Source: Verrucosispora sioxanthis (GTDB lineage Bacteria; Actinomycetota; Actinomycetes; Mycobacteriales; Micromonosporaceae). From it: 64,000 nucleotides of DNA. The notes under the pieces were generated by a model that saw only the letters and a program-made list of their open reading frames with translations, had not been told where the DNA came from and searched no databases. The position numbers were made by a program, and so were the translations under genes. The stretch covers positions 124,001 to 188,000 of the forward strand of contig NZ_SAIY01000003.1 of assembly GCF_010560025.1 (NCBI RefSeq), written 5' to 3'. The number at the start of each line of letters is the position of its first letter. Within the stretch, counting starts at the first letter, position 1. Of this stretch, positions 54,570 to 59,393 are shown piece after piece.

Positions 54570-56272
54570 CAGAACAGGAAGTACCGCTGGGCCATGGGTA
54601 GTTCGGCCACCGGATCCGGCTCCACCACCACACCGTCGATCCGGACCGTGAAGGTGTCCGGGTCGACCTCGATGCGGGGCAGCGCGTCGTTGCCCGGCAG
54701 GTCGGCCTTGCCGCGCGAGCGTACGTCGGCCACCGGCACCACCCGCCGCCGCACGTCCAGCCGCAGCCCGGCCTCGAGCGCCGCGGGCGCGACGAACGCC
54801 AGGCTGGTCGCGGCGGCCGCGCCGCCGTACGCGCCGAACATCGGCCGGGGCAGCATCGGCTGCGGCGTGGGGATCGAGGCGTTCGCGTCACCCATCTGGG
54901 CGTACGCGATCATGCCGCCCTTGATGACCAGGTGCGGTCGTACGCCGAAGAACGCCGGCTCCCACAGCACCAGGTCGGCGAGCTTGCCCGGCTCCACCGA
55001 CCCGATCTCGTGGTCGAGGCCGTTGGCCATGGCCGCGCAGATGGTGTACTTCGCGACGTACCGGCGGGCCCGGTGGTTGTCGGCGGCCCCGTCCCCGGGC
55101 AGGGCGCCCACCCGGGCCTTCATCACGTGCGCGCTCTGCCAGGTACGCAGCACGATCTCCCCGATGCGGCCCATCGCCTGCGAGTCGGAGCCGATGATGG
55201 AGATCGCCCCGAGGTCGTGCAGCAGGTCCTCGGCGGCCATCGTGGACGGCCGGATGCGGCTCTCGGCGAACGCCAGGTCCTCCGGCACCGCCGGGTTGAG
55301 ATGGTGGCAGACCATCAGCATGTCGAGGTGCTCGGCGAGGGTGTTGCGGGTGTACGGGCGGGTCGGGTTCGTCGACGACGGCAGCACGTTCGGCTCACCG
55401 GCGACGGTGATGATGTCCGGCGCGTGCCCGCCACCGGCCCCCTCGGTGTGGTACGAGTGGATCGCCCGTCCGCCGATGGCGCGCAGCGTGTCGGCGACGA
55501 ACGCGGCCTCGTTCAGGGTGTCGGTGTGGATGGAGACCTGCACGCCGGAGGCGTCCGCGACACGCAGACAGGCATCGATCGCCGCCGGGGTGGTGCCCCA
55601 GTCCTCGTGCAGCTTGAACCCGCCGGCCCCGGCCCGCAACTGCTCCCACAGCGCCTCCTCCGAGACGGTGTTGCCCTTGCCGAGCAGCAGCACGTTGACC
55701 GGGAACGTGTCCAGGGCCTCGTGCATCCGGGCCAGGTGCCACGCGTTCGGGGTGACGGTGGTGGCCCGGGTGCCCTCGGCCGGGCCGGTGCCACCGCCGA
55801 CCAGGGTGGTGACCCCGCTGGCCAGGGCCTCGGTGACAAGTTGCGGGCAGATGAAGTGCACGTGGGTGTCGACCGCACCGGCGGTCAGGATCCGGCCGTT
55901 ACCGGCGATCACCTCGGTGGCCGGGCCGATCACCAGGTCCGGGTGGACACCGTCCATGGTGTCCGGGTTGCCGGCCCGGCCCAGCGCGACGATCCGCCCG
56001 TCGCGCAGCCCGACGTCGGCCTTCACCACCCCCCAGTGGTCGAGGACGACCGCACCGGTGATGACGGTGTCCAGGGCGCCCTCGGCGCGGGTGGCCCGGG
56101 ACTGGCCCATCGACTCACGGATCACCTTGCCGCCACCGAAGACCGCCTCGTCGCCGCCGGCACAGTGGTCGTGCTCGATCTCGATCAGCAGGTTCGTGTC
56201 GGCCAGCCGGATCCGGTCGCCGGTGCTCGGGCCGTACAGGGCGACGTAGCGGTCCCGCTCCACCATGCTCAT
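54569..56272 (-). CDS. ureC: Urease alpha subunit
   Basis: A 567-residue catalytic subunit. The nickel ligands and catalytic residues are in place: [10 protein letters not shown], the carbamylated lysine in [20 protein letters not shown], the flap [11 protein letters not shown], and the Asp in [12 protein letters not shown]. It hydrolyses urea to ammonia and carbamate. ATG 56272 follows CGGAGTGCC. Confidence 0.97.
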
Positions 56273-56956: not shown

Positions 56957-57344
56957 GGGTGCTCCCGGTGGATGTCCGCGCTCCCGACGCCGCCGGCCCG
57001 GCGCCTCGACGCGCCGCCGCACGGTTCGGGGGTTCGCCCGCCGGCCCGACCGTCACGCGCTGAGGACCTGGGAGTTCCACCCTCCCGGCCCACGTGACGG
57101 ACCACCGGCGGTGTCATCGGATGCGGACCGCACCGCCCACCGCTGAGCAGACCGTAGAGGATCACCCACTCCCCCGGCAACACCCCGACCGGCCGCCCAC
57201 CCAAACGCCCACCAGCGTTGATCATGAGGTTAGCGGCAGTCGGATAGATCAACTTCGCCGCCAGCCTCATGATCAACCGAGCTTGGCCTTGGGGTGAGGG
57301 TGGTCATAGCGGGTGGACGGTGGGCGGGCGAGGGCTGATAGCGT
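56957..57344. other. Divergent intergenic region between urease and the SAM-IV-controlled transporter
   Basis: No gene is convincing here. It should hold the ureA promoter and, near 57314-57344 (TGGACG, then TAGCGT), a possible promoter for the riboswitch transcript. It also contains the inverted repeat described separately. Confidence 0.45.
57217..57277. repeat. Inverted repeat element with GTTGATCATGAGG ends
   Basis: GTTGATCATGAGG (57217-57229) and its exact complement (57265-57277) enclose an inner pair, TTAGCGGC and GCCGCCAG. The 61-base element would form a long hairpin. I recall GTTGATCATGAGG elements as frequent between Micromonospora genes, but I cannot count copies here. Confidence 0.75.
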
Positions 57345-57457
57345 CGGTGGCAGGTCATGAGTGCCAGCGCGAAGCCCCGGCTTGCTGGCCGGCAACCCTC
57401 GTCCGCGCAGGGGTGCCCCGGGTGAGGACCAGGCGCCGGAGCGTTCTCCGGTGCAAG
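57345..57457 (+). promoter_or_regulatory. SAM-IV riboswitch
   Basis: The stretch has the conserved SAM-IV core: GGTCATGAGTGCCAGCG, then AGCCCCGGCTTGCTGGCC, GGCAACCCTC, GGGGTGCCCCGGGTGA and the closing GACC. GGTC (57353-57356) pairs with GACC (57427-57430) as the basal helix. The 3' hairpin GCGCCGGAGCG/TCTCCGGTGC that marks this actinobacterial class follows directly. When S-adenosylmethionine is plentiful it should switch off the downstream peptide and transporter genes, which points to a sulfur amino acid substrate. Confidence 0.92.
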
Positions 57458-57499
57458 CGTGGCCTGGGTTCCCAGGTCATCACGACCTTGAGGAGCACC

Positions 57500-57592
57500 A
57501 TGTCGTACCGCGATCGTTCTGTGGCCCGCCCGGGCCTGACCCGGCGTCGGCACGTCGACATGATGCGGGTGTGCAGCGCCGCGTGTAGCTGA
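57500..57592 (+). CDS. Cysteine-type leader peptide
   Basis: A 30-residue open frame with GAGGAGCACC before its ATG. It contains LTRRRHVDMMRV and ends CSAACS. This is the pattern of actinobacterial leader peptides before sulfur genes, in which cysteine codons near the end slow ribosomes when cysteine is scarce and so change downstream expression. It lies just after the riboswitch and 136 bases before the binding-protein gene. The two controls in series would read both methionine-derived and cysteine status. Confidence 0.85.
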   Translation: MSYRDRSVARPGLTRRRHVDMMRVCSAACS

Positions 57593-57727
57593 CCGCGTCG
57601 CTCCCCGTCACCGATCCGCCACGGGTCGGCTGACCCTCTGCCATCGATCCCATCCCAGCGGTCCGCCCTGCGGCGGACCGTCGGTGCGGCACGTCCGTGC
57701 CCGCCGCAGCTCAACCAGGAGACACCT

Positions 57728-58576
57728 GTGCGATTCCTTCCTGCCCTGACCCGCGCCGCCGCCGTCGGTGTCGCCGCGATCCTCGGTGCCGCCACCCTCA
57801 CCGCCTGCGGCTCCGACTCCGCCGGCAGCGCCGCCGACAACCCGTACGGCCTGGTGCAGCCGGGCGTGCTGCGGGCCGGCACGCTCACCGACGCCCCGCC
57901 GAACGTGTACCTGAAGGACGGCGAGTTCACCGGCTTCGACAACGACCTGCTTGTCGCCGCCGCCGACAAGCTCGGTCTGAAGGTCGAGTTCGTCGGCACC
58001 GACTTCTCCGCCCTGCTCGCCCAGGTCGGCAACCGGAAGTTCGACGTCGGCAGTTCCTCGATCACCATCACCGAGGCGCGCAAGAAGACCGTGGACTTCG
58101 GCAACGGGTACGACTTCGGCTACTTCGGGCTCGACGTGCCCGCCGGATCGACGTTGCGCAGCTTCGACGAGTTGCCCGGCAAGCGGGTGGTGGTCGTGCA
58201 GGGCACCGTCCAGGACGACTACGCCACGAACAAGGGGCTGGACCCGGTCCGCGTACCCGACTACAACGGCGCGATCAACCAGCTCAAGGCCGGTACCGCG
58301 GACGCGTGGATCGCCCCCGCCGAGATCGGTGAGAAGACCGCGGCGGACAGCGGCGGCAAGATCACGGTGGCGGCGAAGGAACTCAGCCCGGCACCGACGG
58401 CGTACGCCTTCGCCAAGGGCAACGACGCGCTGCGCGAGGCGCTGAACAAGACGCTCGACGAGGTGATCGCCGACGGCACCTGGACCCGCCTTCAGGAGCA
58501 GTACTACCCGGGCCGGCCGATCCCGGCCGACTTCACCCCGGGCAGTGGAGACGTGTCGGCACCGGTCGCCTCCTGA
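57728..58576 (+). CDS. Polar/sulfur amino acid ABC transporter substrate-binding lipoprotein
   Basis: A 282-residue protein with a lipoprotein signal ending at LTAC (near residue 27). The SBP family 3 fold follows: LRAGTLTDAPPNVYLKDGEF, TGFDNDLLVAAADKLGL and SSITITEARKKTVDFGNGY. It should bind a polar amino acid. The riboswitch and cysteine leader upstream suggest cystine, methionine or a related sulfur compound. The GTG start follows CAGGAGACACC. Confidence 0.88.
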   Translation: MRFLPALTRAAAVGVAAILGAATLTACGSDSAGSAADNPYGLVQPGVLRAGTLTDAPPNVYLKDGEFTGFDNDLLVAAADKLGLKVEFVGTDFSALLAQVGNRKFDVGSSSITITEARKKTVDFGNGYDFGYFGLDVPAGSTLRSFDELPGKRVVVVQGTVQDDYATNKGLDPVRVPDYNGAINQLKAGTADAWIAPAEIGEKTAADSGGKITVAAKELSPAPTAYAFAKGNDALREALNKTLDEVIADGTWTRLQEQYYPGRPIPADFTPGSGDVSAPVAS

Positions 58577-58613: not shown

Positions 58614-59393
58614 GTGGATCCGTTGCGCACCCTGTGGGAGACGTTCTTCGACGGCGAGTCGATGCGTGAGGCGTTACCCGAGATGCTCACCGTCGGGTTG
58701 CCGAACACGCTGATCCTGGCGGTCACCGCTGCCCTGCTCGGCTCGGCACTCGGCATCCTGCTGGCGGTGGCGGGCATCTCGCGTACCCGTTGGCTGCGGT
58801 GGCCGGCGCGGGTCTACACCGACGTGTTCCGGGGCCTGCCGGCGGCGGCGACGATCCTGCTGATCGGGGTGGGCCTGGCCCCGCTGGGCATGCAGGTGTG
58901 GGGGCCGAACCCGTACCCGTTGGGCATCCTGGCGCTGTCGCTTATCGCGTCGGCGTACCTCGGGGAGATCTTCCGCTCGGGCATCCAGTCGGTGGAGGCC
59001 ACCCAGCTGGAGGCGGCCCGCGCGCTGGGCTTCTCCTGGCGCGAGGCGATGCGGAGGGTGATCATCCCGCAGGGCATCCGGCGGATCCTGCCGGCCTGGG
59101 TCAACCAGCTCATCGCCCTGATCAAGGACTCCAGCCTGGTCTACTTCCTCGGTCTGCTGGCCAGTCAGCGCGAGCTGTTCCGGATCGGTCAGGACTACGC
59201 GGCCAACACCGGCAACCAGTCGGCGCTGCTGCTGGCCGGGCTGTTCTACCTGGCGCTGACCGTGCCGCTGACCCACGCCGTCAACCGGATCGACAAGCGA
59301 CTGCGACACGGCCGGCCGGCGGCCGGGCCGACCGACGACCCCGACGACCTGGACCTGGCGCTGCCCGGCGCCGCCGGAGGCAACCAACGATGA
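58614..59393 (+). CDS. Polar amino acid ABC transporter permease
   Basis: A 259-residue permease of the HisM/GlnP type with about five helices. It has [20 protein letters not shown], the [18 protein letters not shown] region, and the coupling motif [20 protein letters not shown] followed by [19 protein letters not shown] 58614 follows GGAGGTTGA. The stop overlaps the ATPase start (ATGA). Confidence 0.9.

Follow-up and report, generated by a model that had tools for sequence, protein, structure and literature searches.

The ABC transporter genes described here are probably (about 0.6) governed by a two-stage sulfur sensor, in which S-adenosylmethionine (SAM) gates a short leader peptide and the cysteine codons of that leader report the supply of cysteine, the two acting as one relay. 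The locus lies in a stretch of 64,000 nucleotides, hereafter called the window, and all coordinates refer to the forward strand of this stretch. When SAM is plentiful, the aptamer of a riboswitch would presumably fold, the ribosome-binding site of the leader would be hidden and the leader would not be translated. With no ribosome on the leader, transcription of the transporter genes (probably through Rho acting on a C-rich tract) or their translation would stay low. When SAM is low the leader would be translated, and scarce Cys-tRNA would be expected to stall the ribosome at UGC/UGU; standing just 5' of the C-rich tract, the stalled ribosome may keep the transporter on. A sensor of this kind would therefore allow the transporter to be made best when SAM and cysteine are both short. 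The support comes from sequence comparison, and consists of the elements themselves, the conserved order in which they occur, the exchange of a SAM-IV aptamer for a SAM-I one in some loci, the overlap of the leader Shine-Dalgarno sequence (SD) with the aptamer stem P1, and the constrained codons of the leader. A relay is preferred to two independent switches because the riboswitch platform overlies the ribosome-binding site of the leader, most clearly in loci with a SAM-I aptamer.

A wider proposal, to which we give rather less than even odds, is that a leader licensed by a riboswitch constitutes an AND gate (SAM and Cys-tRNA both low) within one 5' UTR; that the module is old, the aptamer class differing between genera (SAM-IV or SAM-I) while the leader stayed; that a similar tandem precedes another gene in a different actinobacterial family; and that the leader arrests its ribosome in a manner dependent on cysteine, with UGU as the invariant codon of stalling.

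Elements and conservation of the tandem

The RNA at 57353-57465 is a SAM-IV riboswitch by covariance-model membership, matching RF00634 over positions 1-116 of 116 with 99.8 bits (E 4.3e-17, cut-off 38), and SAM binding is predicted. No second SAM-IV match was found in the genome from which the window comes. The putative expression platform for the leader (57461-57504) contains the SD GAGGAG (57490-57495) and leads into an open reading frame of 30 codons, with ATG at 57500 and the stop codon TGA at 57590-57592, which codes for the peptide MSYRDRSVARPGLTRRRHVDMMRVCSAACS, ending in RRHVDMMRVCSAACS. This start codon was chosen for its SD, a mechanical listing of open reading frames extending further 5'. 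The leader is followed by a C-rich, G-poor tract reaching from its stop codon to the first of two conserved hairpins (57593-57657), by the hairpins H1 (57658-57681) and H2 (57682-57706), and by the SD AGGAG (57717-57721) of the gene for the substrate-binding protein. The preliminary description, in which a SAM-IV riboswitch is followed by a cysteine leader peptide and then by an amino acid ABC transporter, was thus borne out for each element and for the arrangement; the start of the feature it had placed at 57345-57592 was 8 bases too early.

The tandem was compared in 78 relatives, obtained from a scan of named genomes for the binding protein and mostly belonging to Micromonospora, with Couchioplanes and Plantactinospora. 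SAM-IV motifs were located with a regular expression, and leaders as open reading frames with [RK][RH]H[VI]D and a Cys near the end. A Cys leader was present in 79 of 79 transporter loci (the window and its 78 relatives), preceded by a SAM-IV motif in 75 and by a SAM-I (S-box) aptamer in 4. The order SAM-IV motif, leader and binding-protein gene was found in 74 of the 78 relatives and in the window, and the conservation of the leader between the other two makes its origin by chance very unlikely. The leader starts 143-149 nt from the start of the aptamer in 74 of these 75 loci; the exception is L096, in which an N in the record breaks the aptamer. When 16 of the 78 relatives were scanned with covariance models, 11 had SAM-IV, 4 had SAM-I and only L096 gave no hit.

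Loci from whole genomes agreed with the named set. A draw of 250 genomes of the family was searched with a binding-protein profile, and 74 were positive (E up to 1e-100). Both elements occurred in 31 of 31 loci examined from the window's genus; the window is one of these, and the species of the named set probably account for most of the others, so that the count is not independent. Among the 14 loci outside the genus, 4 had SAM-IV and the leader (L005, L006, L020, L155), 8 had SAM-I and the leader (4 on the same contigs as the named SAM-I exceptions, 4 additional) and 2 showed neither. These two, G867 and G895, are distant relatives with the binding protein, in which no leader or aptamer was detected.

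Among SAM-IV loci retrieved from the family, 91 with the window, the leader was found in 38/38 of those preceding this transporter and in 0/49 of those preceding an aminotransferase-V-like gene, named by a short motif; of the other 4 loci, 2 had a leader and 2 did not. For 46 of the 49 aminotransferase loci a start codon with an SD ahead of it was located 109-172 nt beyond the start of the aptamer (148-152 nt in 19), a distance similar to that of the leader start, and the leader therefore appears to sit in the place of the ordinary riboswitch target.

Only one of 20 Cys-leader loci scanned class-wide, L241, had a SAM riboswitch. In this locus, from an unrelated family, SAM-IV is followed by a leader ending ...RRHVDLVRVASCTCR and by an LLM-type oxidoreductase-like gene, identified by eye with no family search. 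A leader was seen in 1 of the 6 SAM-IV loci viewed in that family, a seventh match (L273) being the adjoining divergent aptamer. Two SAM-IV aptamers, divergent and separated by about 100 nt, share positions 1095-1430 of L241: an aminotransferase-V-like gene follows one of them, and the Cys leader with the oxidoreductase-like gene follows the other.

Other short frames were seen near SAM-IV aptamers. In L188, L201, L202 and L203, SAM-IV precedes metY-like genes and is followed by different short SD-preceded ORFs, three of which end in VCRR or VCRC. These mycobacterial-type SAM-IV/metY ORFs were considered as tandems and excluded from the count, as their peptides differ. Judging from such loci, SAM-IV control of upstream ORFs (uORFs) may extend beyond this transporter. 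Two remoter relatives of the binding protein, L215 and L216, had no SAM-IV motif, and their upstream frames, ending in NVCLCIR or PVDLCLIRK, are perhaps Cys leaders.

A promoter-like sequence, TGGACG-N19-TAGCGT, occupies 57314-57344 and ends 8 nt short of the aptamer. The pattern TnGACn-N16..20-TAnnnT was present in 74 of the 75 SAM-IV loci, with a spacer of 19 in 71, and stops 7-8 nt ahead of the aptamer in all 74, so that transcription very likely begins at the aptamer. A generic sigma-70 scan (TTGACA/TATAAT) detected no promoter. Just 5' of the -35 element a box resembling GTGAGGGTGGTCATAACG (57294-57311), possibly a regulator site, was seen in most of the 19 loci printed. Also just 5' of the promoter is a 40-nt inverted repeat (57198-57296, 78% complementary, 19-nt gap) with the core GTTGATCATGAGG...CCTCATGATCAAC; a similar palindrome lies between the leader and the transporter gene in L081, and the repeat may for that reason be mobile or REP-like.

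Expression platforms of the two aptamer classes

In the SAM-IV loci, the interval between aptamer and leader contains GUGGCCUGG in 74 of 75 loci, CCAGGUC in 73 of 75 and, behind it, GACC in 71, followed by a G-rich SD and the leader start codon. A tight hairpin between GGCCUGG (57461-57467) and CCAGGUC (57472-57478) would leave the leader SD free, and an alternative, longer hairpin in the computed folds would cover both SD and AUG. The region 57461-57515 folds with a z of -2.54 relative to dinucleotide shuffles. In L052, GGUC/GACC has become GGCC/GGCC with the pairing kept, which is one compensatory change, and in L063 and L084 pairing is retained through G-U pairs; the platform varies too little for further support by covariation. 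A hairpin over the leader SD and AUG is thus a possible form of the SAM-IV switch. A pseudoknot between 57457-57462 and 57403-57408, suggested by complementarity and by the literature, may couple SAM to the choice of hairpin.

Equilibrium two-state folding gave no clear switching. Mean SD accessibility was 0.33 with the 3' strand of the aptamer occupied and 0.38 without, and among the 74 loci it fell by more than 0.05 in 19 and rose by as much in 8; leaving the whole RNA free gave 0.32. The aminotransferase control (40 loci) was equally flat (0.27 vs 0.29), and since no switch appears there either, the method seems powerless for these RNAs.

The SAM-I loci give a plainer picture. L102, L104, L108 and L109 had at first been recorded as lacking a SAM switch, wrongly, since the regular expression was specific for SAM-IV; Rfam shows SAM-I (RF00162) in all four, which are loci of the Plantactinospora type, at 52.7-57.6 bits with a cut-off of 44.4, and in 8 of 10 further loci scanned from the draw RF00162 scored 52.7-59.2 bits. 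The aptamer ends in GAUGGAGG in 8/8 loci of the whole-genome draw. In this strand CCAUC:GAUGG forms P1, and GGAGG is the SD of the leader, overlapping P1, so that SAM binding should block translation of the leader. In the four named loci, where it was measured, the leader starts 6-8 nt past the aptamer; L104 has two further in-frame leader starts. As predicted from these overlaps, the SAM-I arrangement is about the simplest possible OFF switch for a leader ORF. The segment 3' of the leader differs, by eye, from that of the SAM-IV loci. The two sulfur controls of the preliminary description stand in series as it had proposed, but they look like a relay rather than independent controls, given the position of the platform over the leader ribosome-binding site.

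The segment before the transporter and the leader codons

The 30 nt or less ahead of H1 average 55% C and 10% G (73 loci), a rut-like composition, and when ranked against other windows of their own locus by excess of C over G they came within the top 1% at 54 of 73 loci and within the top 5% at 69. The tract of the window ranks at 1.5%, less extreme than most. An earlier count (51/61 in the top 1%, 14/75 uncounted) was replaced by this alignment-based one, as the pattern used for placing H1 had shortened some tracts. On composition alone the tract may be a site of Rho-dependent attenuation. No intrinsic terminator was found in a scan of 57200-57800, and at least five T within 8 nt occurred in just 4 of 75 loci, so that a classical transcription attenuator was not recognised.

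H1 and H2 were folded with RNAalifold over the last 98 nt, with L056 and L081 left out; an alignment of the full segment from leader to gene was poor and its RNAalifold result was set aside. One pair of H1 is U-A in 36, C-G in 23, U-G in 8 and G-C in 1 of the 73 rows, and one pair of H2 is A-U in 39, G-C in 25 and G-U in 4; both hairpins thus show two-sided pair changes, and together they fold with a z of -3.37. H1 holds well except for its innermost pair, which is non-standard in 29 of 73 rows, and five outer pairs of H2 are broken in 15-35 of 73. Pairing of the MRVC codons of the leader with the start of the binding-protein gene, seen in some minimum-energy folds, was rejected as a candidate because by inspection it is weaker in the MRMC clade.

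The conservation of H1 and H2 also fits translational attenuation, in which the leader or its ribosome would open or close the ribosome-binding site of the binding-protein gene. The GG of the transporter SD could be paired by a CC just 5' of H1, the two pairs being standard in 70 and 68 of 73 rows, which says little because the pairing barely varies. A case from M. smegmatis is given this name in the excerpted text of a paper that cites it (PMC13236596). The C-rich tract and the missing intrinsic terminators fit Rho as well, and we regard translational attenuation as unlikely, if a serious candidate.

The leader of the window matched NF042936 (Ms4527A Cys-rich leader) with 28.6 bits (E 7.8e-7; curated cut-off 45) and NF042934 (putative leader peptide) with 25.8 bits (E 5.7e-6; curated cut-off 27), and thus resembles the actinobacterial Cys leader-peptide families to which it is apparently related, though it is no formal member of them. 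Its N-terminal half varies in length and sequence, and its C-terminal motif of 14 codons is nearly constant. Within the motif the mean minor fraction was 0.073, 0.056 and 0.168 at codon positions 1, 2 and 3 (46 distinct sequences), variation being mostly at position 3, which suggests that the motif is read as protein. The features of a cysteine-responsive leader were found, namely Cys codons near the stop, a conserved peptide and the presumably regulated gene next to it, a sulfur role of the transporter being assumed.

The motif holds just two Cys codons and no Cys run, which in the window are UGC and then UGU. All 75 leaders have UGU for the Cys at motif position 13, which is the last Cys of the peptide in 74 of them; in the transporter genes UGC outnumbers UGU by 165 to 19 (automatic walk). 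The last leader Cys codon is also UGU in 8/8 SAM-I loci, and class-wide UGU stands at motif position 13 in all 27 countable leaders (2 of 29 were not countable). In 6 of 75 leaders His, Tyr or Arg takes the place of the first motif Cys, which in the remainder is mostly encoded by UGC (66 of 69). The Arg, Val and Ala codons nearby differ among the same leaders; other codons near fixation are Asp GAC (75/75), His CAC (74/75) and Ser AGC (73). As the loci share descent, these counts are not independent trials. A second Cys leader in the window's genome precedes a rhodanese-like sulfurtransferase gene, named by eye, and has no SAM-IV.

The residues RRH and D are identical in 75 of 75 leaders, none dropped, while the Arg codons use four synonyms. 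This constraint on the peptide argues for stalling by the nascent RRHVD(L/M)xR within the ribosomal tunnel, with cysteine or Cys-tRNA as cofactor and codon hunger alone being insufficient; the recurrence of related motifs 5' of other genes and the loss of the first Cys in 6 of 75 leaders point the same way. The invariant UGU, here and class-wide, indicates Cys decoding rather than the peptide alone, and such an arrest peptide is a doubtful substitute for the relay as a whole.

Against the relay itself stand the flat folding calculation, the small number of Cys codons with the first sometimes replaced, leader scores under the curated cut-offs, a case for Rho built on composition, the two distant relatives in which neither element was detected, and the single tandem among 6 SAM-IV loci of the other family. 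Even so, it is quite improbable that the riboswitch acts on the whole mRNA, through transcription or stability, and that the leader senses cysteine separately, their order being meaningless. Each element does occur without the other, SAM-IV before aminotransferase-V-like genes in 49 of 91 loci and Cys leaders commonly lacking a SAM riboswitch (all but L241 of 20). The near-constant distance of 143-149 nt, at which direct riboswitch targets also sit, and the overlap of the leader SD with P1 in the SAM-I loci speak against separate action. Least probable is a uORF that merely passes on the SAM signal and senses no cysteine, as in ppe2 of M. tuberculosis, since in spite of the riboswitch-controlled uORFs of that species, for which amino acid sensing is not known, the motif is common to other actinobacterial leaders, including the rhodanese-like one of the same genome, and its UGU codon is constrained.

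The transporter and comparison with known systems

The relay would act on a three-gene transporter of the PAAT (polar amino acid) type, comprising a SocA-like substrate-binding lipoprotein (SBP_bac_3, PF00497; 57728-58576), a permease (BPD_transp_1; 58614-59393) above the cut-off of TIGR01726, and an ATPase (ABC_tran, PF00005; 59390-60121) whose best NCBIfam model is GlnQ-like and below its cut-off. The closest solved relatives of the binding protein are structures of SocA with deoxyfructosyl-glutamine and glucopine (176 bits), compared with about 103 bits or less for ancestral and ordinary amino acid binders and 54 bits for 2yln, a cystine binder. A fold search concurred, with 40-41% identity to SocA; the AlphaFold model (mean pLDDT 70) served solely to confirm the fold. 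Pro197 is invariant in 30 of 30 aligned sequences at a position where SocA and AncQR have Asp, the residue that usually binds the alpha-amino group. No curated NCBIfam cut-off was reached by the binding protein, and cystine and methionine binders are not its closest relatives; the best model of the permease is a cystine one, at 114 bits and below its cut-off of 300. The earlier suggestion of cystine or methionine as substrate is thus not supported, and a sulfur substrate would be implied by the regulation alone. If the regulation is as proposed, this SocA-like transporter, so far uncharacterised, probably contributes to sulfur nutrition. Gene neighbours gave no hint of the substrate, none being conserved beyond the three genes in 13 loci inspected.

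In a different family within the order (probably the Mycobacteriaceae), the binding-protein domain lies in frames of at least 600 amino acids in 18 of 20 hits (L217-L236), and an NCBIfam hit to StpK7 suggests that it is there the outer sensor domain of a Ser/Thr kinase. In the window, RF02514 (5' ureB sRNA) matches 55828-56121 with 60.4 bits opposite a urease-like ORF, as it also does in L032; conservation of the urease coding sequence, and not an RNA, may be what the match detects.

Canestrari 2020 reportedly describes translational attenuation by Cys leaders of mycobacteria. The parts from which the proposed relay is built are already known: M. tuberculosis offers published cases of uORFs under riboswitch control (PMC11260477, PMC12810186), and Cys leaders have been described in mycobacteria (Shell 2015, PMC4633059). 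In a search of open-licence literature, seen in part, no description was found of a SAM riboswitch acting on a Cys leader or of two SAM riboswitch classes substituting for each other at one.

Of the M. tuberculosis systems, ppe2 is controlled by a B12 riboswitch acting on translation of the uORF uPPE2, on which the downstream gene depends, and metE also has a uORF (PMC11260477); the ppe2 ligand differs from that proposed here, and the uORF, which shares an AUGA overlap with the gene after it, is not presented as a sensor of amino acids. The Mbox of pe20 has a translational platform on uORF2, together with Rho-dependent termination 5' of the operon, its ligand being Mg2+ and the role of the uORF peptide being unclear (PMC12810186). 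Cys leaders were proposed to work with Rho by Seliverstov 2005 (PMC1262725), and these share with the present leader Cys codons near the stop, a pyrimidine-rich tract and the lack of an intrinsic terminator; in contrast, the excerpts of that paper mention no riboswitch, and by its authors' own account the tract lacks conservation and the prediction is rather weak.

The present leader shares with the actinobacterial Cys leaders (NF042934, NF042936 leader_Ms4527A, NF042933 leader_Ms5788A) a short ORF, the pattern R..VDLxR...C and a position before sulfur-related genes, but it is below the cut-offs of the curated families and has only two motif Cys codons. It has an SD and a riboswitch-bearing 5' UTR of about 147 nt, whereas the mycobacterial leaders are described as leaderless. 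For actinobacterial cysteine leaders in general, the fixed UGU codon suggests a concrete rule.

Like known SAM-IV (RF00634) and SAM-I (RF00162) riboswitches, the aptamers found here are full-length and above cut-off, and a platform of the OFF type is expected. They differ in that the platform lies on a leader ORF and not on an enzyme or transporter gene; if the relay holds, it shows how a riboswitch stacked on a leader peptide lets bacteria integrate signals from two metabolites. They differ also in that either class may be found in front of this one transporter, each replacing the other, and SAM-I and SAM-IV on the same leader would thus constitute a natural swap experiment on whether the class of riboswitch matters.
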